Source of the DNA: Methanolacinia petrolearia DSM 11571
GTDB taxonomy: Archaea; Halobacteriota; Methanomicrobia; Methanomicrobiales; Methanomicrobiaceae
DNA length: 64,000 nucleotides
NCBI RefSeq assembly: GCF_000147875.1
Contig: NC_014507.1
Coordinates: forward strand, 2,232,001-2,296,000
Direction of reading: 5' to 3'
A program made the translations under genes and the position numbers. The stretch's first letter is position 1, and each line of letters starts with the position of its first letter. Under the pieces are notes generated by a model. It saw only the letters and a list, made by a program, of their open reading frames with translations. It did not search any database and was not told the DNA's origin. This document shows positions 3,201 to 23,324 of the stretch, piece by piece.

Positions 3201-3357
3201 ATTATAATAATCATGGTACCTTCAGGACAAAAGGTCCAGTAGAATTAAACTGAAAATGGAGGAACCTGATTTTTATTTCCATGTACTGAACTACAAAAAT
3301 TAAGAATAATTGAATTTACGAGAGTCACCTGATGCCCCGGCATCACCTCTTTTTCAT

Positions 3358-5526: not shown

Positions 5527-6666
5527 TTGACTGATAATATTTCTGAAAATATAGACAATAACAAAGATCCCGTCCTGATATTTGAAACGGCCGGGAAAGA
5601 GAAGATATACCGGTGCGACACTTCCATTGTCGTCAGACTCCCCCCGAATAGAAATGCATTGACGGTTTCCGAGCTCAACGGAGGTTACAGGGAGGATCTC
5701 GAAGCCGTATTCAATCACCAGCCGAAGCCCTCGCAGGGAAAGCACAGCTGCTGCAATCTCGAAGGAAACAGCGTTCCGGAGTACCTGAAGATCACGGCAG
5801 TACGTCTCGGATTGGATCCGGCCAAATCAACAGGAATGATGACGGCGGCAAATATGAAGAATGCCGCAGTCTCGAACAAAAGTTTCAGGGATATCGATGT
5901 AACCGCAATCGTCACGGCAGGGATCGAGGTCAACGGCGGAAGAGCAGGAGATCCTGCTTCCTTTTACGAGGAGGACTGCGAATTCGAACAGATCTGCGGG
6001 ACGATAATTACAATACTCATAATAAATGCAAATCTTCCCGATAGCACTCTTGCAAGGGCAATCGTAACGGCAACCGAGGCGAAGACGGTTGCCATCCAGC
6101 AGCTCATGGCCCCGAGCAGGTATTCGAATGGTATTGCGACAGGTTCGGGAACGGACCAGATATCAGTCATCTCAAACCTTGAGAGCAAAAACAGGCTCCA
6201 GAATGCAGGCAAGCACTCCAAACTAGGGGAGCTTATCGGCAGGTGCGTAATAGAGGCGACCACCAAGGCACTTGAAAAGCAGAGCGGCCTTTGTCCCGAG
6301 TCACAGAGAGACATGATGGTGAGGCTCGAAAGATTCGGGATTGATGAAAAGAAGATCTGGAGTATTGCATCGCGCCTCGAAGGAGAGAACAGGAGATCGG
6401 TCTTCATAAAAAACCTGAGGGAATTTTCAAAAAATCCCGATGTTGTAGCGATGACCGCGTCCCTGCTTCACATTCAGGACGAGATAAACTGGGGTCTGAC
6501 CCCGGAGCTTTCAGGAAAAAGAACAGCAATATCGATTATGAAAACCCTGCCGGAGCTTGCCGGGGCGAAAAAACGCCCGCAGTCCGATATCCTGCTTGAT
6601 GAAAGGGTCGCGATAATCGAAAACTGGATCAGGATCGTTTCCTGGTGCATAAAAAACGGCATTTGA
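5527..6666 (+). CDS. cbiZ: Adenosylcobinamide amidohydrolase family protein (CbiZ)
   Basis: 379 residues. The central block ([20 protein letters not shown], then [15 protein letters not shown] and [22 protein letters not shown]) is characteristic of CbiZ. CbiZ removes the aminopropanol-linked tail from adenosylcobinamide or pseudo-cobamides so that they can be rebuilt. A roughly 95-residue C-terminal extension follows the CbiZ core. The start is TTG at 5527: it is the first codon after an in-frame TAA, has AGGTG six bases upstream, and no early ATG exists. It leads the chelatase/transport/nitrogenase-like operon, with only 8 bp to the next gene. In this setting the substrate might be another tetrapyrrole; that is inference. 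Confidence 0.85.
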
Positions 6667-6674
6667 GGTTTATC

Positions 6675-7715
6675 ATGAGCAAAGATAACCCGGTTTATCC
6701 CTTCTCCGCCATAGTGGGGCAGGAGGATATGAAAGACGCACTCCTCGTCAATGTAGTCGACCCTTCCATAGGGGGAGTCCTGATCCGGGGTGAAAAAGGG
6801 ACTGCTAAATCGACCGCAGTTAGGGCGACAGCCGACCTGCTCCCCGAAAAAAAAGTAATTAAAGACTGCATCTTTCACTGCGAAGCGGGACAGACCAGGT
6901 ACCTCTGCCCTTCATGCAGGGAGCTGATCGAATCCGGCAGAGTCCCTGAATATGAATACACCAGGATGCGTGTCGTAGAGCTTCCGGTAAGCGCAACGGA
7001 GGATCGGGTGGCAGGAACCCTCGACATAGAACACGCGATTACAAAAGGCAAAAAGAAGTTCGAGCCCGGAGTTCTCGCCTCCGCCAACGGGAATATCCTT
7101 TACGTCGACGAGGTGAATCTGCTCGACGACCATATCGTCGATCTACTTCTCGATGCCGCGGCGATGGGCGTCAACTTCGTCGAACGCGAGGGGATATCCT
7201 ACTCCCACCCGTCACGGTTCATCCTCGTCGGGACCATGAACCCCGAGGAGGGAGACCTGCGGCCACAGCTTCTAGACAGGTTCGGCCTCTCGGTGAACGT
7301 CGAAGGTGAGAAAGAGATAGCCACAAGAACGGAGATCATCAGGAGAATACTGGATTTCGAGAGAGATCCGGAAAAGTTCTGTGAATCCTATGAACCGATG
7401 CAGCAGGAGATTCGTGATCGTATTGAAGGAGCGAAGACGATCCTTGGGGAGATCGAACCTGACGATCATCTACTTGAGACCGCGGTAAAGATCTCTCTCC
7501 TCCTCGGTGTCGACGGGCACAGGTCCGATATCACCTTTGTAAAGACAGCAGTGGCTTTCGCCGCACTCGGCGGAAGAGATGAGATCGTGCGGGACGATCT
7601 TATCAGGGCCGCAGGGCTGGCACTACCGCACAGGACGAGAAGGCTTCCGTTCGAAGACGTAAAACCGGAATTCGACAAAGTAAAAACGGTCATCTCGGAG
7701 TGTTACGGCAAGTGA
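6675..7715 (+). CDS. Magnesium/cobalt chelatase ATPase subunit, ChlI-like
   Basis: 346 residues, an AAA+ ATPase of the ChlI/BchI/CobS type that powers metal insertion by a CobN/ChlH subunit. Walker A is GEKGTAKST (39-47). A C-x3-C-x8-C-x2-C cluster at 65-81 matches the cysteine insert of this family. Walker B is [11 protein letters not shown] (140-150) and the sensor region reads [10 protein letters not shown] chose ATG 6675 over an upstream in-frame start because GAGGT lies six bases before it and it falls after the cbiZ stop. It overlaps the next gene by GTGA. The partner large subunit is probably the CobN-like gene at 18714. Confidence 0.88.
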
Positions 7716-9640
7716 ACGAATATCCCGTTTTCCCTTTTCCGGCCATAGTGGGAAACGACTCGGCGAAGAAGGCGATACTCTGCATTCTCTTAAACGAGGA
7801 TCTTAAAGGGCTGCTCATTACCGGCGGCTGCGGTTCCGCTAAAACGACCCTCGCAAGATCTGCCGGGAAAATATCGGACGGTAAAAGCACAACAATTATT
7901 CCGCAGAATACGACAGGGGAGAGGCTCTTCGGCTCCATAGATATTGAAAATGCGATAACTGAAGGAAAAATCAGCATTACAAAGGGAATTCTCGTGGAAA
8001 GCGACCGGAGGATAGTCGTTGTTGACGATATCAACCTCTTCGATGAGAAGATTATCCACACAATACTGGATACCGCCGGTTCCGGGAACCTTCTGCTTGA
8101 GAGAGACGGATTTTCGGAAAACATCCGGACCCGCTACATTCTTGTCGCGACTATGGACCCTGAAGAGGGCAGACTGTCATCCCGGATACTCGACAGGTTC
8201 GACCTTTGCGTAGAGACCGAAAGGATAGAAGACGAATCTGCCAGGTTAAAAATTATCAAGAGCTGCATGGCCTTCGAGAAGGATCCCGTTTCCTTTTCGA
8301 AAGAATACTCCCCTGAGATTGAAGAACTCAGGGAAAATATCAGAAAGGCTAAGGAGAGACTCCCCTTCGTGACGATTCCCGGGTCACTGATAGAACTGAT
8401 ATCGGAATTATGCATAGAACTGAATGTCTCCGGGCAGAGGGGAGACATCGCGCTTGCAAAAACAGCCAAAACTCTTGCTGCAATAGACGGAAGAGACAAC
8501 GTCGTCTTTGAAGACATCAGGCAGGCCGCCCTCCTGGCGCTGGAGCACAGGAGAAGAAGTCCTCCCCCGGGCAGTCCTCAGCGAAATCCCCCGGATGAAT
8601 CCGAACCGGAGGATAGGAGAGAGAACGAAAATAATCGCGACGATGAGGAGAGGCCAGGGAAAGGTAACGACAAAAATGCTGAAAACCGGGAAGATCTGCC
8701 AGATCACGGCAACCGTGAAAGCCCGGAAAACACCCCCTGGGAACCGGGAGAGGCACCACCCGAACAGGTATTTGAGATCGGGTCGGCATTCAACATAATC
8801 GAATTCCTGGACGAACATTCACTGTCGCGACTGAGATCAGGTAATCCGGGAAGCGGCCGCAGGCGAAGAAGCACCAGTAGCGACAGTAGCGGACGTTACG
8901 TTTCGTACAGGCATCGCGACAGGAATAAGAACGACATCGCAATCGACGCAACATTAAGAGCCGCCGCACCTTTCCAGACCGCGAGGGACCGGAATGGGCT
9001 AGCAATAAAGGTCGACAGGGAGGACCTGAGGGAGAAGGTCAGGGAAAAGAGGACCGGCGACATCATCCTCTTCCTTGTCGACGCCAGCGGTTCGATGGGT
9101 GTAAAAAAGAGAATGGTGGCCGTGAAAGGGGCTGTTCTCTCTCTTTTGAACGATGCATACCAGAAGAGGGACACGGTCGGGCTCATGATATTCAGGAGAA
9201 AAGAGGCGACCCTTCTCCTTCCCCCGACCAGGAGTACGGATCTCGCACATAAGTTGCTGAAAGAGATCCCGACCGGGGGAAGAACCCCTCTTTCGGAAGG
9301 TGTCGCCTCAGCTGTGAGACTTCTCTCACAGGGGCGATACTCAAAATCCACGGATTCGAAGACGATCGTTATACTGACGGACGGCAGGGCGAACTACTCC
9401 GGATCGGGCAGGAACCCGTATGAAGAGATGAGAATGACAGCCCTTGCTGCATCTGAAAAGAAGATCCGGTTCGTCGTCGTCGATACAGAGGAGGGATTTC
9501 CAAGGCTGGATTTTGCAATCGCACTCGCATCCGAACTCGGCGCCACCTACCTCCGCCTCGACGAACTCGACAGCAGAAAACTCGCACAATCGATAGAGAC
9601 TATTGTAAAAAAAGGAGCACAACCATGTTTAAAGAACTGA
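7712..9640 (+). CDS. Magnesium/cobalt chelatase subunit, ChlD-like (AAA+ plus VWA)
   Basis: 642 residues. The N-terminal AAA+ domain has Walker [10 protein letters not shown] (38-46) and an acidic VVVDDINLF Walker B. A Pro/Arg/Asp-rich linker spans about 280-370. The C-terminal von Willebrand A domain has an intact MIDAS (DASGSMG, about 457-463; [15 protein letters not shown]). This is the ChlD/BchD/CobT-like layout that bridges the ATPase ring to the large subunit. Both Walker motifs look usable, whereas bacterial ChlD is often degenerate. GTG 7712 (GTGA overlap with chlI) is preferred to GTG 7700 because it gives an N-terminus parallel to the ChlI paralogue. Confidence 0.88.
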
Positions 9641-10608
9641 TAAACTTTTCAATATACGAGTACGACTTCAATAAATTCGACGACAACTGGGACAACCTCA
9701 GGGATTTAATGAAGAGGCAGCAGATAGACGGCATAGAACTCCTCGTCAACTTCGAAGAGGTTCCTGAGAGGATACCGGCTGACATCGTATCTTCGGTCCA
9801 CCTCCCGTCTTTCATGGGATGGTACAGGTTGTGGGAGGATCAAAACTTCAGGATTCCCGAAGAGATCCCGGAAGAATCGGTGAAATATTTTTACGGCGGA
9901 TACAGCAGGGAAGAGGTCGTATCGAACTTCTGCGAATCCATCACATATGCGTCTGTCCTGGAACCCGAATACGGCGTATTTCATGCGGCCTATACCGAGA
10001 TCGGTACCGCTTTCCAAAAAATCCAGCCCTATTCAGACAGGGAGATCCTCAAAGGAACAGCAGAATTCCTGAATGAAGTCGCATCCAGCTTCCCCGGAGG
10101 AGAGCCTCCTTTCGATATCTATATAGAAAATCTCTGGTACCCGGGACTTACGTTTCTCGATCCGGAAGCCGCATCGGATTTCACAGGGATGCTTGAATTT
10201 AAAAACTGGAAGCTCCTGCTGGACACCGGCCATCTGATGAACGCGACCGGTTCGTCGGTCGAAGAGGAGAGATCAATAGAAGCGGTCCTGGATCTGCTCG
10301 GGAGGCTTGACGAAGAGACCATAGACAGCATAGCCGGAATCCACCTTCACCTCAGCACATCCGGCGATTACCTGGAGAAGATCGAGGAGCCGGAGAATTA
10401 CCGGAATATGACACTCGACGAGAAGTATGCGCACATATACGAACTTCTCAAGAACGTGGATCAGCACCGCCCCTTCTCCTCGGAAAGATGCAGGGAGATT
10501 GTGAATTTCATCTCCCCGGATTTTGTGACCCACGAACTCCCGGGAATGACAGCGGAGGAGATCGAGAGCAGGATTGCCCAGCAGGTCAACTCGCTTCGCA
10601 AAACCTGA
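9625..10608 (+). CDS. TIM-barrel protein of the sugar-phosphate isomerase / AP endonuclease 2 family
   Basis: 327 residues resembling xylose isomerase-like TIM barrels. Likely metal-site strands are IYIENLWYPG (about 165-174), LLLDTGHLM (about 197-205) and IAGIHLHLS (about 237-245). These supply Glu, Asp/His and His residues at the expected strand ends. The start has an AAAGGAGC ribosome-binding site and overlaps chlD by 16 bp, so it belongs to the operon. No substrate can be named. An epimerase or isomerase in a metal-tetrapyrrole locus is unexpected and might act on a side chain, or serve as a metal-binding accessory. Confidence 0.7.
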   Translation: MFKELINFSIYEYDFNKFDDNWDNLRDLMKRQQIDGIELLVNFEEVPERIPADIVSSVHLPSFMGWYRLWEDQNFRIPEEIPEESVKYFYGGYSREEVVSNFCESITYASVLEPEYGVFHAAYTEIGTAFQKIQPYSDREILKGTAEFLNEVASSFPGGEPPFDIYIENLWYPGLTFLDPEAASDFTGMLEFKNWKLLLDTGHLMNATGSSVEEERSIEAVLDLLGRLDEETIDSIAGIHLHLSTSGDYLEKIEEPENYRNMTLDEKYAHIYELLKNVDQHRPFSSERCREIVNFISPDFVTHELPGMTAEEIESRIAQQVNSLRKT

Positions 10609-10632
10609 ATTTTATTTGAATACAATTTTGGC

Positions 10633-10665
10633 TTAATTAAAAAAATATTTATTTAGATTAATTAA
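10633..10665. promoter_or_regulatory. Two TTAATTAA palindromes, candidate internal promoter/operator
   Basis: Perfect palindromes TTAATTAA at 10633-10640 and 10658-10665, with centres 25 bp apart, lie in the only sizeable gap (75 bp) of the operon just before the binding-protein gene. A third copy lies at 22486-22493, upstream of the cobN-like gene. AT-rich sequence makes chance matches easy, so this is a suggestion of shared control only. Confidence 0.3.
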
Positions 10666-10683
10666 ATTTTATCTGGACAAGAT

Positions 10684-11910
10684 ATGGATATCAAAAATAA
10701 AGATTTGAAAATATTCTGCATTCTGGTTGTAGTGGTGCTCATTGCGGCCGCCATTGCGATCCTGGCATTTTCCTGGGGGCCCGAGGAAAGCAGTGGCTAC
10801 GATAATCAGGCCGGTCCGACAGCAGGTAGCGGAAAAGATTATTTTTCATCGAAAGCCCTGCCCGAATATGCCGAAGGCTTCGAAGTGGAATACCATGACA
10901 ACTACAAAGTCCTCAGCATTATAGACCCCTGGGGGCGGGAATCAGGAAACCGCACCTACCTGCTCGTGCAAAAAGGGACTGAGGTTCCTGCCGGATACGA
11001 CGATGCCGCGGTATTCTATATTCCGGTCGAAAGTGTTGCCGCCCTCTCGACTACCCAGATCCCGCATATCGCAAATATCGGAGAGATCGACACTATAAAG
11101 ATCGTCAGCAATATCCAGTACATCAATAACCCGGAGATAATCGATCACTACGACGAAGGGCTCATTCATGATGTCAGCACGGCGGACAGCAGCATGACAA
11201 GCGGGCTGGACGCCGAGATCCTGATCGATGCAGAGCCCGATGCGGTCTTCGTCTCGGCTATGGAAAACCCGGATTATGACGACAGCTCAAAGATCAGGGA
11301 GCTCGGATTAAAACCGGTCATCGTCAGTGAATATATGGAGAAAACTCCTCTTGCCCGTGCCGAATGGATAAAATATTTCTCGCTCTTCTACAACAGGGAG
11401 GAAGAGGCCAACGCCCTTTTCGACGAGATAGTGTCCAGGTATGATAACGTCTCCGCGAAAGCGAAAGGAGTCGGTGAAAAACCAACCGTATTCTCCGGGA
11501 ATGATTACTACGGCACCTGGTATATGCCGGGCGGAGAGAGCTACGTAGCACAGTTGATCGAAGACGCCGGAGCGGACTATCTCTGGTCCGATGATAATTC
11601 AACCGGCTCGATCCCGCTCGACTTCGAGGCCGTTTACGACACGGCCGCAGACGCGGACTACTGGATCAATATGGGAACCGCGAACACGGCCGGAGAACTG
11701 CTTGCTGAGGACGAAAGATACTCCAAATTCGATGCCTTCCAAAACGACAGCTTATATAACAACAATGCAAGGGTGAACGAATTCGGCGGAAACGACTACT
11801 GGGAATCGGGCGTAGCGAGACCTGACCTCGTGCTGATGGACCTGATTAAGATATTCCACCCGGAGATCCTGCCCGATCATGAACTGTACTATTATAAGCA
11901 CATCGAATAA
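10684..11910 (+). CDS. ABC transporter substrate-binding protein (FecB/BtuF-like), membrane-anchored
   Basis: 408 residues. One N-terminal membrane segment (about 10-30) has no lipobox cysteine, so it is probably anchored by an uncleaved helix. Two Rossmann-like lobes follow, typical of class III periplasmic binding proteins (LDAEILIDAEPDAVFVS ... KPVIVSEYMEKTPLARAEWIKYFSLFY). It would capture a metallophore, corrinoid or related tetrapyrrole for the permease and ATPase directly downstream (15 bp gap). The ligand cannot be read from sequence. The flanking CbiZ and chelatases favour a corrinoid or metal-tetrapyrrole. Confidence 0.82.
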   Translation: MDIKNKDLKIFCILVVVVLIAAAIAILAFSWGPEESSGYDNQAGPTAGSGKDYFSSKALPEYAEGFEVEYHDNYKVLSIIDPWGRESGNRTYLLVQKGTEVPAGYDDAAVFYIPVESVAALSTTQIPHIANIGEIDTIKIVSNIQYINNPEIIDHYDEGLIHDVSTADSSMTSGLDAEILIDAEPDAVFVSAMENPDYDDSSKIRELGLKPVIVSEYMEKTPLARAEWIKYFSLFYNREEEANALFDEIVSRYDNVSAKAKGVGEKPTVFSGNDYYGTWYMPGGESYVAQLIEDAGADYLWSDDNSTGSIPLDFEAVYDTAADADYWINMGTANTAGELLAEDERYSKFDAFQNDSLYNNNARVNEFGGNDYWESGVARPDLVLMDLIKIFHPEILPDHELYYYKHIE

Positions 11911-11925
11911 AACGGAGAATCCTGA

Positions 11926-12981
11926 TTGACATTACCTGCGGCGTGCAAAATTTCGGGGATACTCTTCCCCGCAGCTTTATTGATCCTGATAACTCTCTTC
12001 GTCCTCGATCTCGTCCTGGGGTCGGTAAATATCCCTATAGAATCGATTATCTCGATCATCACGGGGGCGGAGACGAAGGATACGTGGATCAATATATTTT
12101 ATGACTGGAGGCTCCCCAAGACGCTGACCGCTCTCCTTGCAGGCGCTTCGCTTTCCGTCGCAGGTCTCCTCATGCAGACGCTCTTCAGGAATCCGCTCGC
12201 AGGGCCGTATATTCTCGGGATAAGTTCGGGGGCAAGCCTCGGCGTCGCAATAGTGATAATGGCCGGAGGGATTTCAGGATCGATTGTTGCATCGACCCTC
12301 GGGCTCTTCGGGAATCTCGGGATTGCAGTTGCCGCAACTGCAGGGTCGGCAGTTGTCATGATATTGCTTCTTTTCGCCTCGAGAAAGATCGAGAGCAATA
12401 TCACGATACTGATAATCGGCATGATGTTCGGGTACATCACAAGCTCTATCGTCTCCGTTCTGATGCAGTTCTCTGCTTCCGAGACGATGCAGTCTTACGT
12501 ATACTGGTCGTTCGGAAGCTTCTCGGGCGTGACCTGGTCGCAGCTCTTCATACTTCTTATAGCTTCGATAGCCGGACTGGTGATCTCCTTCCTGCTGGTA
12601 AAGCCGCTTAATGCACTGCTCCTGGGGGACAAATATGCAGTCAGCATGGGGATCGATTACAAAAAAATCAGGTATATAATAATCATAAACACCTCGCTCC
12701 TTGCGGGAATCGTCACCGCGTTCTGCGGCCCGATCGGGTTTCTGGGAGTCGCAGTCCCGCATCTCTGCAGGAGCCTGTTCGTTACGGGAAACCACAGGAC
12801 ACTTGTCCCTGCATGCATCATCATGGGTGGTATAATCGCAATAGCCTCGGACATAATCGCACAGGTGCCCGGGACCGGGCTGGTCCTTCCCCTTAACGCA
12901 GTCACGGCACTATTCGGTGCGCCGGTCATCATATGGATTATCCTGAGGGGCACGAAATACGGACGGGGGATCTCCACGTGA
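11926..12981 (+). CDS. FecCD/BtuC-type ABC permease
   Basis: 351 residues with about ten membrane helices. Family signatures include RLPKTLTALLAGASLSVAGLLMQTLFRNPLAGPYILGISSGA (approximate sites 50-90) and the GFLGVAVPH loop near 270, the coupling region for the ATPase. The start is TTG at 11926 with a CGGAGA ribosome-binding site; no ATG lies close by. It overlaps the ATPase gene by GTGA. It belongs to the iron-siderophore/vitamin B12 uptake family and forms a dimer in that family. Confidence 0.88.
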   Translation: MTLPAACKISGILFPAALLILITLFVLDLVLGSVNIPIESIISIITGAETKDTWINIFYDWRLPKTLTALLAGASLSVAGLLMQTLFRNPLAGPYILGISSGASLGVAIVIMAGGISGSIVASTLGLFGNLGIAVAATAGSAVVMILLLFASRKIESNITILIIGMMFGYITSSIVSVLMQFSASETMQSYVYWSFGSFSGVTWSQLFILLIASIAGLVISFLLVKPLNALLLGDKYAVSMGIDYKKIRYIIIINTSLLAGIVTAFCGPIGFLGVAVPHLCRSLFVTGNHRTLVPACIIMGGIIAIASDIIAQVPGTGLVLPLNAVTALFGAPVIIWIILRGTKYGRGIST

Positions 12982-14048
12982 ACTCCCCTGAACTCCTTTC
13001 ATGCAGGAACCTCGCCATCGGCTATTCCAGCAAAAAGGGAGGAGTAAAGAGAGTCTCCGAAAACCTGAACATCACCCTGGAGAAGGGCGAACTCGTTTCG
13101 CTCATCGGCCCGAATGGATCGGGCAAATCCACGCTGATCAGGACACTCACTGCTCTCCAGCCGTCCCTCGAAGGCGAAGTCCGCATCAATGGCAGGGATA
13201 TCAGGTCTTTCTCGCCCGAAGAAAAAGCGAAGACCATGAGTGTTGTGCTTACGACTCCGGTGCAGGCCGGAAACATGAAGGCATTCGACATAGTTGCGCT
13301 CGGAAGATACCCTTATACGAACTGGGCGGGGAGCCTGGGAGCAAAAGACGAAGAGGCGGTAATGAACGCCCTGTCGTCTGCCGGAGCGGCGGATCTCGCC
13401 CATCGTTTCATCCATGAACTGAGCGACGGTGAGAGGCAGAAAGTAATGATTGCAAGGGCGATTGCACAGGATCCGGACCTCATGGTCCTCGACGAGCCTA
13501 CGGCCTACCTGGACCTCCCGCACAAGATCGAGATCATGCGTGTCCTGAAACAGGTGGCGCATAAGTACGGAAGAACTATCCTCCTGTCGACCCACGATCT
13601 GAATCTCGCGATAAAATGCTCGGACCGGATGTGGATAATGAAGGGCGGCGGGGAGTTCAGGTCTGGAACACCGGAGGACCTCATACTTTCGGGAGAGCTC
13701 GAATCTGCATTCAACCTCGGAGGGGTCAGATTCGACAGGATGAAGGGGGACTTTACGATACCTGTCGAAAAGACCGGGATGGTGCTCCTGAAGGGAGAGC
13801 AGTCCGCCGAGTATACATGGACTGTGAACGCCCTGGAAAGGACGGGCATAGAGATTGCCGGGGGGCCAGGGCAACCGGATGAACCGGGCAGTCCTGAAGA
13901 TTCATGCATAATCTCCATAGAAAAAACGGACGAGGGGACGAGATGGATTGTCAGGAAAGAGGACACCCAGTTCGGGATGACATGCGAAAGCATAGGGGAA
14001 CTTGTTTCGGCACTACTGTTCTTATTCAAAGGAGGCGGCAGCGATTAA
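12978..14048 (+). CDS. ABC transporter ATPase (FecE/BtuD-like) with C-terminal extension
   Basis: 356 residues. Walker A is GPNGSGKS, the signature motif is LSDGERQKVMIARA, Walker B is LMVLDEPTAYLD, and the switch His is in LLSTHDL. About 110 residues after the ABC domain (roughly from 245) form an extension of unknown fold. The start is GTG 12978, overlapping the permease stop as GTGA and preceded by GGGGGA. The 3' end carries AAAGGAGG, which looks like the ribosome-binding site for the next gene. Confidence 0.88.
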   Translation: MNSPELLSCRNLAIGYSSKKGGVKRVSENLNITLEKGELVSLIGPNGSGKSTLIRTLTALQPSLEGEVRINGRDIRSFSPEEKAKTMSVVLTTPVQAGNMKAFDIVALGRYPYTNWAGSLGAKDEEAVMNALSSAGAADLAHRFIHELSDGERQKVMIARAIAQDPDLMVLDEPTAYLDLPHKIEIMRVLKQVAHKYGRTILLSTHDLNLAIKCSDRMWIMKGGGEFRSGTPEDLILSGELESAFNLGGVRFDRMKGDFTIPVEKTGMVLLKGEQSAEYTWTVNALERTGIEIAGGPGQPDEPGSPEDSCIISIEKTDEGTRWIVRKEDTQFGMTCESIGELVSALLFLFKGGGSD

Positions 14049-16302
14049 AATTGCAGTATACGGGAAGGGAGGAATAGGGAAATCCACAATCTCGGCCAAT
14101 ATCTCGGCCGCACTTTCCCTAAACGGGAACAGGATCCTGCAGGTGGGCTGCGATCCCAAACACGACTCCACGAGACTGCTCCTGGGAGGCAGGGTCCCGG
14201 AGACCGTCCTCGATTATATCAGGGAAGTGGCGCCGGAACAAAGAAGTCTCGACGACATAGTCTTCTGCGGTTTCGGTAATGTCGCATGCGTCGAAGCCGG
14301 CGGCCCCGAACCCGGCGTAGGCTGTGCGGGCAGGGGCATCATCACCACGTTCGGTCTTCTGGAATCTCTCGGCCTGGGCCGGATCGATTTCGATTACGAG
14401 ATATACGATGTTCTCGGCGATGTCGTATGCGGCGGGTTTGCCGTCCCCATACGAAAGGAGTACGCTGAAACGATCTATCTCGTAACTTCCGGCGAATTCA
14501 TGGCGATCTATGCTGCAAACAACATCCTCAGGGGGATCAAAAACTTCGGCGATTCGCCGGAGAGGGTCGCCGGGATTATTTACAACAGCCGGAACCTGAA
14601 GGACGAAGACGAAAGGATTCGTGCATTTGCGGAAGCGGTGAAGCTGCCTGTCGTCGCCCGCATTCCGAGAAGCGATCTCTTTGCATCCGCGGAGAAAGAA
14701 GGAAAGACCGTCATAGAAGCATACCCGGATTCCCAGGAGGCTGAAATCTTCAGGGAGATTGCGGCGAATATCTCCGGGATTCGTCCAGCAGGCGGCGGAA
14801 GACTTCACGGAGCCCTTCCGCTCGACGACGAGACCCTCGAAGCCGTTGTCCTGGGCGTTCGTAAAAAGGATATTCACAAAAAAAGGACGCACCAAAAATC
14901 CGAACCGGCCAAAGCAACTACACAGAATGCATCACCTACGCCCTCATCTGCTCACTGTCCTTTCCGCCCCGGCGAAAAATGCAGCACTGATGTATCCGAT
15001 AAAAAAACGGATGCCTCCGTGAACTCCCGGACGAAGTATCCTCTTCACGGCTGTGCTTTTGCAGGTGCGGCCTGCGTTACCGCACAGATAATGGATGCCT
15101 ACACCATCCTTCACGGCCCTAAGAGCTGTGCCCACATGATGTGGGGAATCATCGAGAATTCACTCCTCAGGATGAACCGCCTCTACGACTTTTCCACGGA
15201 TTTCGATATCACGAAAAGAACAGGGACCACTAACATGGACGACGAAGATTTCATCTTCGGCGGAGAAGCAAAACTGAGAGCTGAAATCGGGAAGGCGATC
15301 GATAACGGCTGGAAGCATATCTTCATAATAACAGCATGCCCACCCGGAATAATCGGGGACGACACATCACTCGTCGCGGAAGAGATGATGAAACAGCACC
15401 CAGGAACAACAATCGAACCTATCCCTGTCGACGGGAATATCGATGGGGATTTTTCGCAGGGATACATCCGCACGTTCGGGATAATCGCGAGGTACATCGA
15501 CCGGAGCGGCGGGGGAAGAAAGGAGAATTCGGTCAATATAATCGGGGAGAAGTCGCTTGCAACAAACGAGGAGTACGACTTCGGGTCGATAAAAGATCTC
15601 CTTGACGCTATCGGGATCTCGGTGAACACCCGTTTTATTACCAGGACCGATATCGCTTCGATCAGGAATCTCGACAATGCATGCATGAACCTCCCTGCAC
15701 ACGGCGACTTTACCTCGGCGATGATCTCTGAGATAGTAGCCGGGAATTCCTCCCTGCCCTTTCTGAATATGCCGTTTCCGACGGGATTCGGGGAGACATC
15801 CGCGTGGCTCACGAAGATAGCGGAATTTTTCGGCAAAACGAAGAAGGCCGAAGAACTGATCGAATCCGAAGAGAAGATCTACAGGAAGAAGATCTCCGGG
15901 CTGAAGGTATCGACGAAAGGAAAGAAGCTCCTGGTCAGTACATATTCGCGGAATATCGACTGGATCATCGAACTCGCATGCGATCTCGGGATGGAGATCG
16001 TCCGCATCGGCCTTATGCATTCGCCTGAAAAAGAGCCGCTGAGAACACGGTACGAAGACCTCCCTGTAAGGGACGATTATGACCCGGAGATACGCAGAGA
16101 GGAGATCGGATTGCTCTCCCCGGACCTCGTGCTGCTCGACCGGCCGGCCCCGGGGCAGGGAGAGTATGTAAGATACGATACCATACCCTATTCCGCGGGA
16201 TTCGGATTTCAGGCCGGGCTTTTCTGGGCTGAAAGATGGAGCAGGGTTATGAAACTGCCGCCTGCCGAAGAGTGGAGATATGACGGAGAGGACGTATGCT
16301 GA
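14044..16302 (+). CDS. NifH-NifD fusion, nitrogenase-like reductase/catalytic subunit
   Basis: About 752 residues. The NifH-like part (1 to about 265) has the P-loop GKGGIGKS at 7-14 and both bridging [4Fe-4S] cysteines, Cys94 (GVGCAGRG) and Cys129 (DVVCGG). A hydrophilic linker of about 60 residues follows. The NifD/CfbD-like part keeps three cluster cysteines: about 337 (HGCAFAGA), 362 (GPKSC) and 432 (TACPPGIIGDD). In this superfamily NifH passes electrons to a NifDK-type dimer that reduces N2, protochlorophyllide, chlorin or Ni-sirohydrochlorin. A single-chain NifH-NifD is unusual. Start: a TTG at 14002 exists, but AAAGGAGG eight bases before ATT 14044 and the ATTAA overlap with the upstream stop favour ATT. 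Confidence 0.85.
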   Translation: MKIAVYGKGGIGKSTISANISAALSLNGNRILQVGCDPKHDSTRLLLGGRVPETVLDYIREVAPEQRSLDDIVFCGFGNVACVEAGGPEPGVGCAGRGIITTFGLLESLGLGRIDFDYEIYDVLGDVVCGGFAVPIRKEYAETIYLVTSGEFMAIYAANNILRGIKNFGDSPERVAGIIYNSRNLKDEDERIRAFAEAVKLPVVARIPRSDLFASAEKEGKTVIEAYPDSQEAEIFREIAANISGIRPAGGGRLHGALPLDDETLEAVVLGVRKKDIHKKRTHQKSEPAKATTQNASPTPSSAHCPFRPGEKCSTDVSDKKTDASVNSRTKYPLHGCAFAGAACVTAQIMDAYTILHGPKSCAHMMWGIIENSLLRMNRLYDFSTDFDITKRTGTTNMDDEDFIFGGEAKLRAEIGKAIDNGWKHIFIITACPPGIIGDDTSLVAEEMMKQHPGTTIEPIPVDGNIDGDFSQGYIRTFGIIARYIDRSGGGRKENSVNIIGEKSLATNEEYDFGSIKDLLDAIGISVNTRFITRTDIASIRNLDNACMNLPAHGDFTSAMISEIVAGNSSLPFLNMPFPTGFGETSAWLTKIAEFFGKTKKAEELIESEEKIYRKKISGLKVSTKGKKLLVSTYSRNIDWIIELACDLGMEIVRIGLMHSPEKEPLRTRYEDLPVRDDYDPEIRREEIGLLSPDLVLLDRPAPGQGEYVRYDTIPYSAGFGFQAGLFWAERWSRVMKLPPAEEWRYDGEDVC

Positions 16303-17603
16303 ACTTCGACTGCGATGGATTTTACGGGACACTGTTTGCCATAGAGGGGATATCGGACGGAAGAGCAGTACTCAACGGCCCGACGGGATGCAGGGGCCAC
16401 CCGGCATATTTCTCCGACCGGGTCTTTTCGAGAAACAATCCGTTCAAGAAGATAAACCCTGAAGAATTTTTCTTCTTCGGGCTGCCGAGAATACCGTTGA
16501 CATATCTCGACGCCGACGATTACATCGCCGGATCAGGTGAAAAGCTGGAGGCGATACTGCCGAAGATCGCGGATATGGACGGGTCTTTTATCGCGATCGT
16601 AAATTCACCGGGAGCGTCGCTTATCGGTGACGACCTCAACAGGTTCCTGCGTGATGCAGGACTTCAGGAGAGATGCATGGCCTTCGAGAGCTCTTCGTAC
16701 TCGGAAACGGTGGCAGCAGGCTTCGATGCCGCGATAGTTTCGGTACTTAAATGGCTGAAGTTAAACCGTCTCCCCGGAATCAAAAAGAGAATCAACCTGC
16801 TGGGGCTGAGCATATACCACAAGCACTGGGAGGGGACGCGGGACGAACTGGTGAAGATCTGCATGCTGATGGGGCTTGATGTCATATCTTCACCCGGCGC
16901 CGGCTCATCCGTTGCAGAGATGAAGGAATCGGCCTCCGCTTCATTTAACGTGATCGTCTTCCCTGAATATTCCGAACGGACTGCAGGATGGTACGAGGAT
17001 GAACTGGGCATTCCGTCTATAAGATCCCCGCATGGGGCTCCGGTCGGTTTTTCGGCAACCGAGGAATGGATAAATACAATAGCAGATGCCACCGGCGCCG
17101 ATCCCGAACCTGCGCTTGACTACATAAAAGAGATGAGAAGGATTGCTTTCCACAAACTCGGCAGGTTCTACAACGAGAGAGGATTTCCGAAGGGAATGAC
17201 TTTTTCAGTCGAAGCCGACGCATCAATCGCCCTGCCGCTGGTCAGGTGGCTCTACGAATATCTCAATATGTTCCCTGTCTCGGTCTCGATCAAACCTGAA
17301 AGCGATGCCGGGTACGGCAGAACCCTCTGCGATTTTCTCGAATCGAATTCGATCGGGGAATCCCTCCGGGTCAGACCCGATGATGTCCCGTCGGATGTTT
17401 TCGTAGGCGAAGGCCTAAAGGGTTCGATATTGAGGAACAACGGCCTCTGCCTCGCGAATATCGATATCGCAAACAGGAGCGGCGATTATATCGACGTCGT
17501 GCCGAAGACTCATCTCGGCGGCGCCGGTGCACTCTACCTGCTCGAACAGATCCTTAATGCGGCCAACAGAATAAGATACAAAAACTTTTTAAATAAAAAA
17601 TAA
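16296..17603 (+). CDS. NifK/NifE-like nitrogenase component 1 family protein
   Basis: 435 residues, overlapping the fusion gene by seven bases, so it is almost certainly its partner. It has the oxidoreductase/nitrogenase component 1 fold with Cys6 (FDCDGFYGT) and Cys32 (GPTGCRGH) at the first two cluster positions. At the third, NifD/NifK Cys aligns with Pro105 next to Ser104 (NSPGASLIGDD). The cluster shared with the NifD half would therefore have an incomplete cysteine set, as in other nitrogenase-like enzymes where one ligand differs. No FeMo-cofactor ligand pattern is evident. The substrate is unknown; a tetrapyrrole is suggested by context only. Confidence 0.82.
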   Translation: MLNFDCDGFYGTLFAIEGISDGRAVLNGPTGCRGHPAYFSDRVFSRNNPFKKINPEEFFFFGLPRIPLTYLDADDYIAGSGEKLEAILPKIADMDGSFIAIVNSPGASLIGDDLNRFLRDAGLQERCMAFESSSYSETVAAGFDAAIVSVLKWLKLNRLPGIKKRINLLGLSIYHKHWEGTRDELVKICMLMGLDVISSPGAGSSVAEMKESASASFNVIVFPEYSERTAGWYEDELGIPSIRSPHGAPVGFSATEEWINTIADATGADPEPALDYIKEMRRIAFHKLGRFYNERGFPKGMTFSVEADASIALPLVRWLYEYLNMFPVSVSIKPESDAGYGRTLCDFLESNSIGESLRVRPDDVPSDVFVGEGLKGSILRNNGLCLANIDIANRSGDYIDVVPKTHLGGAGALYLLEQILNAANRIRYKNFLNKK

Positions 17604-17800
17604 TAATTTGAGTTTTAAGCTTCATGACAATAAATATTTTTATTTTTTTTTTCACGACAAATTCGATCTATTTTAACTCAAATAATTATAATTTACAATA
17701 ATTCGGATCCAAAGCTTTCTAAAACAAAATAGAAATATTTTTAAGCATAAAATATACACTATTGATCGAAATATAAATCTATCCAATAGAGTGAAAGATC

Positions 17801-18649
17801 ATGAAAGGACATGGAAACAAACCAGAAAGCCACGGAGCGGTACTTGTGGTCGCGATGGGAACGACTCAGGAGGAAGGCCGTGCAGTGGTCGACAGATGCA
17901 TTGAGCTTGTGAAGAAGACGTATCCCAAGGCCGACGTCGAATTCGCATTCAATTACGAAGCGGTGAGGCTGGTCCTGAAGGAGAACGGCGAGGAAGTGCT
18001 CAGCCCGCTTGCCGCCATGACGAGACTTCTCGACAAGGGGCACTCGCAGGTCGTAGTTCAGCCGCTTTACCTCACGCCAGGAATGGGATACCACGAGCTT
18101 TACAGGATCATCGTGGCATTAAACGATCTTGCAGGAGCACACGGTGCGATCGGCTTCGACGGAATCCTCATAAGCAGACCACTGCTGATGAACACGGAGG
18201 ATTATTTCGAAGTCGCGGAGATTATCGATGGAATCTATGCCGGATCTCTTGCCGAGGACGAAGCCCTCGTACTTGTCACTCCCACCTCCGAAGGAGGAGC
18301 GGACACCTCGCTCTGCCAGATGCAGATGGTCATGGACGACATCTGCAAGTCCGGAAAGATCGTGATCGGTGCGGTTGGCGGGTACCCCGGAGTAGAAAGA
18401 GCAGTCAAAAGGCTCGGACATGTCGGGGCGAAAAAGGTCAGGCTCGTTCCCTTCTCGCTCGTACCGGGGATACATGCATGGATCGAGACCTCAGGGGAGA
18501 GCAATCCGGATTCATGGAAGAAGGCTCTCGAATCGGAAGGCTACCAGGTGACAGTCGATGAAAAGGCCCTCGGCGAGCATGAAGAGATCATAAGCGTCTT
18601 TGCCGGAAGGCTGAAGGACGCCGTGGGTTCGCACGGATTTTTAAAATAA
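17801..18649 (+). CDS. CbiK-family protein (sirohydrochlorin cobaltochelatase-like) with altered metal site
   Basis: 282 residues. Collinear with CbiK: the N-terminal strand VLVVAMGTT, VVVQPLYLTPGMGYHEL, and the C-terminal VRLVPFSLVPGIHAW followed by DSWK. From remembered Salmonella CbiK, His207 is kept (GIHAW). The segment carrying His145 (GHG) reads TPTSEGG here, and the NGDE segment with the acidic ligand reads TPGMG. It may therefore bind a different metal or act as a carrier or scaffold rather than a classic chelatase. A 197-bp AT-rich gap separates it from the nitrogenase-like genes, so it probably has its own promoter. It is convergent with the CobN-like gene. Confidence 0.75.
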   Translation: MKGHGNKPESHGAVLVVAMGTTQEEGRAVVDRCIELVKKTYPKADVEFAFNYEAVRLVLKENGEEVLSPLAAMTRLLDKGHSQVVVQPLYLTPGMGYHELYRIIVALNDLAGAHGAIGFDGILISRPLLMNTEDYFEVAEIIDGIYAGSLAEDEALVLVTPTSEGGADTSLCQMQMVMDDICKSGKIVIGAVGGYPGVERAVKRLGHVGAKKVRLVPFSLVPGIHAWIETSGESNPDSWKKALESEGYQVTVDEKALGEHEEIISVFAGRLKDAVGSHGFLK

Positions 18650-18713
18650 AAGGGATTTTAATTCCGTAATTAATTTTTTTTATTTTTCCAGATTTCGTTT
18701 TATTTGTTCTGTG

Positions 18714-21700
18714 TTATTCCGACATCTCCTCGATGATCCCTTCGGATTCAAGGTAGATTTCTTTCAGGCGCCGGATCGTCTCCTCACCGGCGTCCCAGAA
18801 TCCTCTCTCATACGCTTCCAGGAGCCTTCCGGCCATGCTGCGAAGAGCGTGCGGATTATTCTCCTCTATCCATTCGCGTGTCTCGTCGTCGAAGAGAAAA
18901 TGCTCGGCAAGCTCCTCGTACTCCCAGTCGTCAACCGCATCCGAGGTCGCATCCCAGCCTAAGGTGTACTCTACATTCGAGACAAGCTCCTGCACCCCGC
19001 GGTAGCCATGCGGCTTCAGGCCCTCAAGCCATTTCGGGTTTAAGATCCTGCTCCTGAAGAGATATCTGATCTCCTCGTCGACGGACTTCGTCTTAACCCT
19101 CGCAGGGTCGGACGCGTCGCCGATAACCGAAAGCGGATCTTTTCCGCCGTAGACCTTTGCACATGCGTTCATTCCGCCGAGGTACATGTAATCATCATCG
19201 TGATCAAGGATGTCGAGTTCGCGTGAAACATGGTTCTTCACGGTTACGTCGACACTTCCGAACCTCTCCCTGAAAAGCTCAACAAAACGTTCGCCTTTAA
19301 GATTGCGGCCGTATGCATGTGCGCCCCAGTTTGTATAAACGTCGGCGAGATCCTTTCTTTCAGTCCATGCTGATGCCGACACGACCTCGGATATTCCTGC
19401 TCCGTAATTTCCGGGAGGGCAGCCGAATATTCTGACCAGCGACTGCCTCCGGGCCTCTTCGGGTGAGAGCCCCTTCTCGATCTTATCGAGGAGATCGCGC
19501 CTCAGGTGGGCCGAAAGATAGTTGATGTCGTCAGATTCGTCGAGTGTCGCGATCATTCCTACCCCATCATCGATCATGTGCATGAGCGTGGGGAAGACAT
19601 CCCTGAAGAGGCCGCTGATCCTGAGAGTGACATCGATCCTCGGCCTCCCGAGCTCCTTCGACGGAATGATCTCAAGGCCCGTGACCGCTCCCCCTCGTTC
19701 GGACCAGACAGGACGAAGGCCCATAAGCCACAGGAGATATGCGATATCGTCCCCGCCACTCTTCATTGAATCCGATGCGAACACCACGATCCCGACATTT
19801 TCCGGGTAACAGCCGTTCTCGTCGATGTATCTCGCGATCATCTGGTCAGCAAGCACCTGCCCGGTTTTCCAGGCGGAAGGTGTAGGAATTGTCGCGGGAT
19901 CGATCGAGTAGAAGTTTTTGCCGGTAGGGAGTATGTGTGCATTCCCTCTTGTCGGTGCTCCGGACGGTCCGGGCGGAACATAGCCCCCGTCCAGACCCCT
20001 TAAAAGATTTTTAGTCTCGTCGGTCGTTTTCAGGAGGTCCGGAACGATCCCGTTGCAGATGTATTGTACCGTCTTTTTTATTTCCTCGTTTTCAGCAGGG
20101 TAGAACGAATCGACGATGCCGTCGCACGACTGCAAATCGAATTCTTTCCCGGCGAGCGACACGATTAGATCGCGGGCTTCGCTGTCGATCTCTTCTAACA
20201 GTTCTCCTCTGCACCGTCCGCTCTTCTCGTCTAAGACTGAAGGATCTTCAGCAAGGTCTTGTATGTCATAGCCCCTATGCCCGGCAACTGCTTTTCTCAA
20301 CGAAATATTCCTGCCGTTGTCGAGCCTTGTCAGTGCATAGATCATCTCGTTCAGCCTTTCGCCTGAAGGGGGGCGGCCGAATATATGAAGCCCGTCTTTT
20401 ATCAGGGCGTCCTTGACCTCGCAGGTATAGTCATACAGCCGTTCGGCATTCGCCCTGAGTTCATCTTTCCCGATCTCATCTTCAAAGCCGAGGTCGGTGT
20501 AGAATTTCTTCCCGTTGACTACTCCGAGAATTTCTTCGAGCAGATCTTCCGCTTTGGCAGTCTCCTTCGCGCTCTTCGCCCTGAAATATTCCTGCAGCAT
20601 GCTCCCGAGATCTTCGACCTCGCCGTAGCCGTCCGCACGCATCATCGCAGGTATAAGGTGGGAGAGGATCGCCGCAATACTCCTCCTCTTCGCCTGCGTT
20701 CCCTCGCCGGGATTGTCGATGATGTACGGGTAGAAATGCGGGATGTCATCGAGCACTAGATCCGGATAACAGTTTTCAGAAAGGCCCGTGCTCTTTCCCG
20801 GCAGCCATTCGAGAGTGCCGTGGGTTCCTATGTGCACTACGGCGTGGGCCCCGAAATCGTGTTTCAGCCACCTGTAGTATGCAAGGTAATGATGGGGCAT
20901 CACCAGGTCTGTCGAATGATACATCGTTTCGATCTGCTCGAAGAAACCTCTCGGCGGCTGGATACCGATGAAGATATTTCCGTTCATGACGCCGGGGATC
21001 AGGATCGAGTTCCTGCCGGTCACGAAGATCTCCCCCGGCGGCTGGCCCCAGTCGCGGCAGATCTCTCCTGCGGATTTTTCCGGCACCTTGGAGAACCATT
21101 CAGAGTACCTGTCACCCGGGACTGCGCCGGCCGCCCTCTTCTCCATCTCTTCGGCCGGAATCCAGTTCCTGTCGTTGTTGAGACCTTTAAGCAGTTCTTC
21201 GACTACTTCATTTCCGTTTCCGGGAATACGGTCGACATGATAGCCTGCTTCTTTCAGTTTCTTCAGGATCTCTATTATGCTTTCAGGGGAGTCCAGGCCG
21301 AAAGCACCGCCGATTCCGTCGCTGTCACCCGTGTACTGGTAGAGCAGCAGAGCAACCCTCCTTTCGGCGGGAGGAGTCCGGCGTAGAATCGCAAATTTTT
21401 CTGCAATGGATACGATCTTCTCAACGCGGTTTTTGACTGGGACATCGATCCTCCTGCCGTCTATATCCCCCTTGCACGAAAGCGGGACTCCTATAAGCTG
21501 ACCGTCGAATTCGGGCCAGACCAGTGACGAAGAGATCTCCAGCGGCAGGAGTCCGTCGATATCCTCCGTCCATTCGTTGAATGTCTTGTTCGTCGACATG
21601 ACCTGGAGGAGCGGGACATCGAAGTCATCGAAGAAGTTGTATGGCAGTTCCTCTTTAGTCCCGTCATTCGGATCGGAGAGGGATATCTGTGAAAATCCCT

Positions 21701-22466
21701 GGTTGATGATGAGAACATCGACTAATGGTCTTCCGTTTTCTGTCAGGTATTCTTCAACAACCCTCCGCACACCCATTGCGCCGGTCACGGGATTCGGAAC
21801 GGTTCCGAAGAAAACCGCCAGGGCTGAAAGACCACGGTCTTCGATCTCCCTTACCAGTGCATCGACGGATTTCAGGTTTGAAGAATGGTATGCTCCCTGG
21901 TATATGCTGATCCCGATCACAGGTTTAGCAGGATTTATTCTTTTCAGGTGGGAATCGCGATCGATAACTCCGGGCATATCAGGATGATAAAATCCTTCTG
22001 TCGCCGGGTGGGCAAGCGGAGGGATTTCCACGTCTAATCCACCGATCTTTTTGCAGGCCCATAAGACGAGCGACCTGAAATTTTCTTTTCCACCGAGTTC
22101 GAGGCAGGCATAGAGATGATTGTAATCCTCTTCAGGGAAAGAGAAAAGATCCCGGGTTTCTTCCATCTCCTCGGGGAGCGAGCTCTCTATGAAGGCATCC
22201 GTACCCCTGGTCCTGATAAATTCGAGGAGCCTTTCGAATTTTTTGAAATGTGTCATGCTCCCGTGAATTGTTATGAATACGAAAGAGCAATCCCTGAGCT
22301 CTTCGACGAGCTCTGCGAACTTCCTCTCTTCAGTATCCAGAGATTCGGAATCGGCCTGGACTATGGTCACGTGGATTCCGGTTTCTTTCAGTTCACCGGA
22401 TATCTCATCGAGCCATGGGTTCTTTCCCGTTCCCGATCCTACGTGAGCGATTTTGAAAAGTTTCAC
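18714..22466 (-). CDS. cobN: CobN/ChlH-type large chelatase subunit
   Basis: 1250 residues, the usual size of CobN/BchH. These subunits bind the tetrapyrrole and metal, and insert the metal with ChlI/ChlD-type ATPases. Family blocks include YQGAYHSSNL, MPHHYLAYYRWL, VVHIGTHGTLEWLPGKS, IIDNPGEGTQAKRR and FGCPPGNYGAGI. The start is GTG at 22466 without a clear Shine-Dalgarno. It is transcribed towards the main operon and is the only large-subunit gene in the window, so it is the natural partner for chlI (6675) and chlD (7712). Whether it inserts cobalt, nickel or another metal cannot be decided from sequence. Confidence 0.9.
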   Translation of the reverse strand: MKLFKIAHVGSGTGKNPWLDEISGELKETGIHVTIVQADSESLDTEERKFAELVEELRDCSFVFITIHGSMTHFKKFERLLEFIRTRGTDAFIESSLPEEMEETRDLFSFPEEDYNHLYACLELGGKENFRSLVLWACKKIGGLDVEIPPLAHPATEGFYHPDMPGVIDRDSHLKRINPAKPVIGISIYQGAYHSSNLKSVDALVREIEDRGLSALAVFFGTVPNPVTGAMGVRRVVEEYLTENGRPLVDVLIINQGFSQISLSDPNDGTKEELPYNFFDDFDVPLLQVMSTNKTFNEWTEDIDGLLPLEISSSLVWPEFDGQLIGVPLSCKGDIDGRRIDVPVKNRVEKIVSIAEKFAILRRTPPAERRVALLLYQYTGDSDGIGGAFGLDSPESIIEILKKLKEAGYHVDRIPGNGNEVVEELLKGLNNDRNWIPAEEMEKRAAGAVPGDRYSEWFSKVPEKSAGEICRDWGQPPGEIFVTGRNSILIPGVMNGNIFIGIQPPRGFFEQIETMYHSTDLVMPHHYLAYYRWLKHDFGAHAVVHIGTHGTLEWLPGKSTGLSENCYPDLVLDDIPHFYPYIIDNPGEGTQAKRRSIAAILSHLIPAMMRADGYGEVEDLGSMLQEYFRAKSAKETAKAEDLLEEILGVVNGKKFYTDLGFEDEIGKDELRANAERLYDYTCEVKDALIKDGLHIFGRPPSGERLNEMIYALTRLDNGRNISLRKAVAGHRGYDIQDLAEDPSVLDEKSGRCRGELLEEIDSEARDLIVSLAGKEFDLQSCDGIVDSFYPAENEEIKKTVQYICNGIVPDLLKTTDETKNLLRGLDGGYVPPGPSGAPTRGNAHILPTGKNFYSIDPATIPTPSAWKTGQVLADQMIARYIDENGCYPENVGIVVFASDSMKSGGDDIAYLLWLMGLRPVWSERGGAVTGLEIIPSKELGRPRIDVTLRISGLFRDVFPTLMHMIDDGVGMIATLDESDDINYLSAHLRRDLLDKIEKGLSPEEARRQSLVRIFGCPPGNYGAGISEVVSASAWTERKDLADVYTNWGAHAYGRNLKGERFVELFRERFGSVDVTVKNHVSRELDILDHDDDYMYLGGMNACAKVYGGKDPLSVIGDASDPARVKTKSVDEEIRYLFRSRILNPKWLEGLKPHGYRGVQELVSNVEYTLGWDATSDAVDDWEYEELAEHFLFDDETREWIEENNPHALRSMAGRLLEAYERGFWDAGEETIRRLKEIYLESEGIIEEMSE

Positions 22467-22688: not shown

Positions 22689-23324
22689 TTATTGAGTAAG
22701 GAATAGTTCACCGCTTGTAATAACACGCTCGCTTGCCTTATCAATAACCTTGTACTCGATTTTGCTGTTCATATATGCTCCAAAGCCACCGGAAGCACCG
22801 ACAGGCTTCCATGAGATTTTTGCGTCATAATAGCCATAGCCGTATTCAGTCAAATCCTGTGCAACCAAACTGCTATCAGCGTAAAGCATGAATTTGTCGC
22901 CCGGTGCAATAGCAACATCATTTGTAGATGTATTTCCTATTTTTTGGAAATAGCCTTCATTATATGTAATTCCCTCGGGCAGGCATACTCCCGAACCGCT
23001 ACTCCAGTTTACCTTATCAGAAGTTGTTAAAGTATACTTCGTATCCTCAGACTGGAGCTGGATCTTAATATCATTTAATGAAAATGTATCCCCACCGGTG
23101 TTCTCAAACATAAGGCCGTTTTCATACTCAGTAGGATCAGAAGAGTTCAGGGAAAATCCGGCGATTTGGGAATTTACCGAAAGCGTCGTCTGGGGCGTCT
23201 TTTCCTGATTGCCAGCAAGACCTCCGGCAAAAGCACTTACGACCGATGCGATAATAATCGTCACGACCAGCATCAGCATGACACCAACAACTGGCGAAAC
23301 CGCCTCGTTCCGATTTTGTTTCAT
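22689..23324 (-). CDS. Archaeal type IV pilin-like protein (DUF1628 type)
   Basis: 211 residues. A seven-residue leader is followed by AVSPVVGVMLMLVVTIIIASVVSAFAGGL. The head contains the GDKFMLYADSS motif seen in the first array. It is the second gene of a two-pilin unit and overlaps the upstream pilin by ATGA (23321-23324). The core is nearly the same as in the 191-2315 array 20 kb away, pointing to a dispersed gene family. Confidence 0.85.
   Translation of the reverse strand: MKQNRNEAVSPVVGVMLMLVVTIIIASVVSAFAGGLAGNQEKTPQTTLSVNSQIAGFSLNSSDPTEYENGLMFENTGGDTFSLNDIKIQLQSEDTKYTLTTSDKVNWSSGSGVCLPEGITYNEGYFQKIGNTSTNDVAIAPGDKFMLYADSSLVAQDLTEYGYGYYDAKISWKPVGASGGFGAYMNSKIEYKVIDKASERVITSGELFLTQ

Follow-up and report, generated by a model that had tools for sequence, protein, structure and literature searches.

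Organization of the locus

The window, which is the whole stretch of 64,000 nucleotides analyzed here, covers positions 2,232,001-2,296,000 of the single 2,843,290-base contig of the Methanolacinia petrolearia genome. A compact run of nine plus-strand genes occupies positions 5527-17603, where most junctions overlap and gaps reach 75 bp at most. It opens with a CbiZ-type adenosylcobinamide amidohydrolase (5527-6666), in which a CbiZ domain (PF01955, 6e-59; 199.7 bits against a gathering score of 27) is followed by a C-terminal extension. The ChlI-type AAA+ chelatase motor subunit (6645-7715; TIGR02442/TIGR02030; P-loop GEKGTAKST) and the ChlD-type AAA+/VWA subunit (7700-9640; Pfam and NCBIfam matches; MIDAS motif DASGS) come next, and are followed by a CbiR-like TIM barrel (9625-10608; PF01261). 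Three genes then encode an ABC importer: a membrane-anchored substrate-binding protein (10684-11910; PF01497, Peripla_BP_2, 4e-23), a FecCD-type permease (11926-12981; PF01032, 4e-79) and an ATPase (12933-14048; PF00005, ABC_tran). The run ends with a NifH-NifD fusion (14002-16302; Fer4_NifH 1e-92, Oxidored_nitro 1e-63) and its NifK-like partner (16296-17603; 8e-35). A CbiK-family gene (17801-18649, plus strand; PF06180, 2e-44) starts 197 bp after the NifK gene, and a minus-strand gene for a CobN-type large chelatase subunit (18714-22466; PF02514, 1240 bits) converges on it. The open reading frames and their Pfam and NCBIfam matches bear out every gene named in the first-pass annotation; the tight packing that it described also stands, with nine genes in place of its eight.

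The module is bordered on either side by genes for archaeal type IV pilins and a T2SSE-type ATPase (868-5130 and 22689-23932). A second importer lies at 24086-27221 on the plus strand. It is a BtuFCD-like system of the corrinoid type (NCBIfam BtuC 340 bits, corrinoid ATPase 268 bits) and is probably functionally related to the module. Beside it, on the minus strand (27822-30664), are ECF-type genes with a CbiQ-like T component and a protein that combines a TrpP-like membrane part with two ATPase domains. A search for riboswitches gave no Rfam match within the window. AT-rich dyads at the gene heads, considered as a candidate promoter motif common to the loci, exceed those in simple base shuffles when the heads of close relatives are counted, mononucleotide shuffling being a poor null.

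The NifH-NifD fusion and its partner

The Fe-protein domain of the fusion has its P-loop and both [4Fe-4S] cysteines intact in 51 of 51 sequences, and with its PF00148 partners it belongs to the nitrogenase superfamily (PF00142/PF00148). The NifD domain has three invariant cysteines (16/16), C8, C33 and C103, which correspond in the alignment to Cys62, Cys88 and Cys154 of NifD. C32 of the NifK-like protein, invariant in all 15 sequences, aligns with NifK Cys95, where BchB has an aspartate; the invariant D7 stands at the position of NifK Cys70. Three cysteines and one further ligand thus form, as judged by sequence only, an inter-subunit [4Fe-4S] pattern like that of DPOR. The FeMo-co ligands Cys275 and His442 are absent from all 16 aligned NifD domains, and of the full P-cluster cysteine set the NifK-like protein retains one residue. 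The loss of these residues, NFL Cys275 among them, places the proteins outside the N2-fixing and MAR-type enzymes.

In the nitrogenase-superfamily tree the NifD domains and the NifK-like proteins each form their own clade (support 100/99), outside CfbD, BchNB, BchYZ, Nif/Vnf DKEN and the Treponema pairs taken as MAR/NFL-type references; the deep branching order among the long branches of this tree is unsure. The profile scores agree: the NifD part reaches 25 bits with the CfbD model (cut-off 268), the DPOR/COR match is 57 bits (cut-off 490), and the proteins group with neither BchN/BchB nor BchY/BchZ. The NifH part is closest to CfbC (NCBIfam, 328 bits). The predicted NifD fold (pLDDT 85) matches NifD and NifE, and the weaker NifK model (pLDDT 67) finds its best matches in BchB and MAR. 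Taken together, the separate clades, the cluster ligands, the missing FeMo-co ligands and the predicted folds lead to the prediction that NifHD-NifK is an ATP-driven DPOR-like [4Fe-4S] reductase and not a nitrogenase. NifHDK forms a separate branch of the nitrogenase-like reductases, one that is probably directed at tetrapyrroles.

Other nitrogenase-like pairs were encountered. At 2,382,889-2,386,000 of the same genome (L058:7920-10855) a CfbC-type NifH adjoins a divergent ABC exporter and a pair of unfused NifD/NifK-like proteins. The NifD of this pair is the sister group of the fused clade, and the two proteins represent a further uncharacterised nitrogenase-like pair. On plasmid pTS2 of Treponema saccharophilum (L134), two pairs of nitrogenase component 1 proteins are encoded together with NifH, NifB/NifX-like proteins, cysK and an ABC importer.

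A fused nifH-nifE gene followed by a nifN-like gene has been noted in Archaea, Firmicutes and Deltaproteobacteria (Dos Santos 2012, PMC3464626). That fusion, given as 'data not shown', left out of the tree and presented without functional context, is almost certainly the same protein family as NifHD. The same paper mentions ABC transporters near other nitrogenase-like genes (PMC3464626). Among open-access papers, none was found that links fused nitrogenase-like genes to CobN, CbiZ or corrinoid genes.

Chelatase, tail-removal and transport proteins

The P-loops of ChlI and ChlD and the ChlD MIDAS motif are intact, and the window CobN retains HIGTHGTLEWLPGK. With these ATPase and MIDAS motifs and the large-subunit motif HxGTHGxLEWLPGK, CobN, ChlI and ChlD correspond to a class I chelatase of the CobN/ChlH type. 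The CobN of the module falls in its own clade (98/100 within the phylum), apart from the two other CobN proteins of the genome. This dedicated subfamily, set at a threshold of at least 1986 bits (next match 1362), is confined to seven of the 394 phylum genomes, each of which belongs to the 21 that have a NifK match. The hypergeometric chance of this overlap, 4e-10, ignores shared ancestry and comes from a profile built from linked copies. The window CobN also matches the HmuS dechelatase at 407 bits, yet its nearer relatives are CobN proteins.

Second CobN copies outside the NifHDK locus sit with CbiK, CbiR-like, ChlID or BtuFCD genes. The two other CobN genes of this genome, at 626-642 kb (L114, L115), each have FecCD-type importer genes nearby, joined at L115 by a DrrAB-type exporter and a ChlD-like protein. 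In two further genomes (L141 in G532, L142 in G480) paired CobN genes occur with CbiZ and several binding proteins in the absence of NifHDK, so the CobN-CbiZ linkage is wider than the module.

The TIM-barrel protein of the first-pass annotation can now be placed more closely, in the AP-endonuclease-2 family; its best NCBIfam match is the CbiR model NF041277, at 22.7 bits well below the cut-off of 105. Its metal ligands (H120, E168, D200, H203, H240, H281 and E304) are kept in nine relatives. CbiR homologues of this superfamily hydrolyse the nucleotide loops of cobamides (PMC7733943).

The CbiK-like protein has an altered metal site. Of His154, Glu184 and His216, which we take to be the metal ligands in the structure of D. 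vulgaris CbiK, the first two are lost in 15 of 15 relatives, and His216 is kept along with four other conserved histidines; the conserved positions are H4, H114, H207, H225 and H278. Because two of the three ligands are lost, a role as metal inserter is doubtful, and metal insertion by CbiK is not supported. Among proteins of solved structure its best relative is the heme-binding protein FetB, and a putative tetrapyrrole carrier, or a protein with an altered site, describes it better than a functional class II chelatase.

The best NCBIfam model for the permease of the first importer is BtuC (NF003001), an assignment to the corrinoid type that comes from the amino acid sequence alone; a sequence search for PDB relatives of its binding protein gave none. 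In many relatives a DrrAB-type exporter adjoins CobN or NifHDK, a feature that lay outside the sequence available to the first-pass annotation; in the window none lies beside CobN.

Conservation of the module

The gene set recurs in many genomes, as the first-pass annotation had proposed to check. It consists of the NifHD fusion, NifK, the FecBCD-type importer, CbiZ, ChlI, ChlD and the dedicated CobN, spans Methanomicrobiales and Methanosarcinales, and appears with almost unchanged gene order in a different phylum, in Methanomassiliicoccales-type genomes. The genes are found together far beyond chance, and the set recurs with NifD domains only 33-46% identical. Relatives of the fusion are present in about 20 of 232 genomes of the class; the module is present in 21 of 394 phylum genomes and also in Firmicutes. 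CbiZ is linked to NifHDK in three archaeal orders.

In Methanomicrobiales, 15 wide-context loci were compared (the window and L039-L052), some of them truncated at the end of the contig or of the retrieved sequence. All 15 have the three importer genes and ChlI/ChlD, 14 have CbiZ and 11 have CobN; the DrrAB-type ABC-2 exporter accompanies nine of the 15, CbiK seven and the CbiR-like gene five. Among Methanosarcinales the set is complete in L117 and nearly complete in L122. It is reduced to CbiZ with CbiK and/or the importer in L116, L118, L121 and L130, and to CbiZ with CbiR in L129. Three genomes picked as relatives of a Methanomethylophilaceae MAG (L166, L167 and L169) share the order importer-CbiZ-ChlI-ChlD-NifHD-NifK, with the exporter and CobN alongside, and many Methanomethylophilaceae loci combine NifHDK with importer and/or exporter genes.

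No corrinoid genes were found near the NifHDK copies of Methanosarcina and most Firmicutes, and no CobN in the three Firmicutes genomes tested. The Firmicutes copies have no consistent shared neighbours (MATE in 2/12, a Nik importer in one). In one Lachnospiraceae-family genome (G607, L178) a MATE exporter and a nickel importer resembling NikABCDE come after NifHD-NifK. The copy labelled 'Bacteroidetes ADurb.Bin145' (L104, MWDJ01000051) is near-identical to a Methanomicrobiales contig (L077) and is probably mis-binned. A search for relatives in viral contigs found none.

Relation to F430 and corrin synthesis

Canonical CfbE, CfbD and CfbB, all above the NCBIfam cut-offs, are encoded at about 1006.0-1009.7 kb of the same genome, and a CfbC-type NifH at 2383 kb. 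Since this standard F430 locus lies elsewhere, the module is not the usual F430 locus, as had been proposed, and F430 synthesis was rejected as its role. The first-pass annotation had named beforehand two findings that would speak against it: a gene set that does not co-occur elsewhere, and a NifD-like protein that groups within CfbD in a genome with no other cfb locus. Neither was made: the genes co-occur in other genomes, the NifD/NifK-like proteins stay apart from CfbD, and cfbEDB is present elsewhere.

CbiC is found in 21 of 21 NifHDK genomes of the phylum sample (284/394 overall). The module is thus an addition to de novo corrin synthesis, and corrinoid auxotrophy was rejected as the reason for import, salvage for auxotrophs being unlikely.

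A possible pathway of corrinoid processing

By combining these observations, it is possible to propose how the proteins may work together. The FecBCD-type importer would take up a cobamide or related corrinoid, whose nucleotide and aminopropanol tail would then be stripped by the CbiR-like and CbiZ proteins. The NifH domain, driven by ATP, would pass electrons through the [4Fe-4S] cluster between the NifD and NifK subunits, in the manner of DPOR and CfbCD, and NifHDK would thus reduce the ring or the metal of the trimmed corrinoid. CobN, with the ChlI/ChlD motor, might subsequently remove or exchange the central metal, the altered CbiK-like protein serving as tetrapyrrole carrier. In genomes with the DrrAB exporter, the ring, once stripped or altered, would leave by this route. 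This scheme of reductive processing with metal removal or exchange is offered tentatively as a whole, as plausible and somewhat short of likely.

We infer the substrate class from CbiZ, the CbiR-like protein and the importer, and likewise the order of the steps, their direction and the product. Uptake of an external corrinoid, suggested earlier, gains support from the association of NifHDK with these same three components. CbiZ, CbiR and CbiK remain with NifHDK where the importer or CobN is missing (L054, L055, L121 and L129), and the neighbours that stay longest, namely CbiZ, the CbiR-like and CbiK-like proteins and the importer, point to a corrinoid. In the canonical anaerobic route cobalt is inserted early, leaving no metal-free corrin for CobN. 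Together with corrin synthesis by the hosts and the frequent exporter, this favours removal or exchange of the metal over plain insertion. The CobN/ChlH homologue HmuS removes the metal from heme without ATP (PMC12583661). The ATP independence of HmuS and the closer relationship of the window CobN to CobN count against the favoured scheme. So does the fact that all nitrogenase-like tetrapyrrole enzymes known to us are biosynthetic, and that the CobN-ChlID enzymes whose role we know insert metal. The NifHDK copies of Methanosarcina and most Firmicutes, with no corrinoid genes nearby, the lack of CobN in the three Firmicutes genomes tested and the lack of an exporter beside CobN in the window weigh against it as well. 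The more specific proposal, that NifHDK reduces corrinoids so that CobN-ChlID can extract cobalt, or replace one metal by another, while the corrin stays intact, is possible if doubtful. If true, this would be the first case of the B12 ring having its metal exchanged by enzymes, in a system that includes its own import and export and has enlarged sets of paralogues in gut methanogens.

Alternative explanations

An imported tetrapyrrole might instead be trimmed, reduced at the ring by NifHDK and supplied with metal by CobN-ChlID, giving an undescribed metal-tetrapyrrole cofactor. This rebuilding, the direction given in the first-pass annotation, would agree with the dedicated CobN clade, with motor motifs that normally drive ATP-dependent insertion, and with the biosynthetic ring reductions of DPOR, COR and CfbCD. 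However, the module has no dedicated methyltransferase, amidase or ring-decorating gene, and its CbiK-like protein is without chelatase ligands; in view of the exporter in many relatives and of precedents of the HmuS type, removal or exchange is no less likely, and the anabolic route itself appears rather unlikely. Scavenging of metal from a non-corrin compound (heme, F430 or a chlorophyll breakdown product), with import, reductive metal release and export of the ring, would make the module an archaeal counterpart of HmuS. The HmuS match of the window CobN, the relationship of the CbiK-like protein to FetB, the presence of both importer and exporter, and the Lachnospiraceae copy with its nickel importer and MATE exporter are in keeping with such a role. 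It is nevertheless unlikely: CbiZ and the CbiR-like protein, both cobamide-tail enzymes, persist in the module, and the CobN is nearer to CobN than to HmuS.

A metallophore cycle, in which a chelator secreted by the exporter is re-imported as its metal complex and the metal is reductively freed by NifHDK, is brought to mind by FecBCD importers, which are of the siderophore/B12 class, and by three Methanomethylophilaceae loci (L173, L177 and L180) with import and export genes beside NifHDK and no CobN. It leaves CbiZ, ChlID and CobN unexplained and finds no chelator-synthesis genes, and its probability is low. Synthesis of F430 or a modified F430 is very improbable: the main hosts are all methanogens and the NifH part is closest to CfbC, but CfbD lies outside the NifD/NifK clade, canonical cfb genes are encoded elsewhere, and the module is confined to a small part of the phylum sample and extends to Firmicutes. 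Nitrogen fixation or methylthio-alkane (C-S) reduction by these members of the same superfamily is hardly credible. The genome does have a separate nif cluster at 270-276 kb, but the missing FeMo-co ligands and P-cluster set contradict such activities, and the proteins form a clade separate from Nif, Vnf and the Treponema pairs.

Comparison with known systems

DPOR (BchL-BchN-BchB) resembles the module in having an Fe protein with a two-subunit nitrogenase-like partner, of which one subunit supplies three cluster cysteines and the second a single ligand, and BchB is the best fold match of the NifK model. The module differs in its separate clade, the cysteine at the aspartate position of BchB, the fusion of NifH to NifD and the corrinoid-type neighbours. 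CfbCD is likewise an ATP-driven [4Fe-4S] reductase with a tetrapyrrole substrate (predicted for the module) and a close NifH part, whereas CfbD is of the single-subunit type, outside the module clade, and its canonical copies are separate in the genome. The heme dechelatase HmuS of Bacteroides, a precedent for metal removal, shares with the module CobN the CobN/ChlH superfamily and a location among import genes; HmuS acts on heme, in the envelope and without ChlID or ATP, whereas the module protein is CobN-type and encoded with ChlI and ChlD. Known cobamide remodelling systems (CbiZ/CbiR with BtuFCD) also combine import and tail removal, but without a nitrogenase-like enzyme or CobN-ChlID.

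The module suggests an undescribed way of importing and chemically reworking B12-like molecules in many methanogens. The function of archaeal CobN was called unclear in 2025 (PMC12583661), and the module provides a testable setting for the role of many of these proteins and for the substrate of a nitrogenase-superfamily branch that is still uncharacterised. Should this substrate prove to be a corrinoid, a nitrogenase-like step would be added to methanogen B12 biology, including the expanded sets of gut Methanomethylophilaceae. Two genomes of this family (G548 and G546; L162-L165 and L179) show a large paralogue expansion, often adjoining importers and exporters, and G548, from the gut, has 13 CobN and 7 NifK matches.
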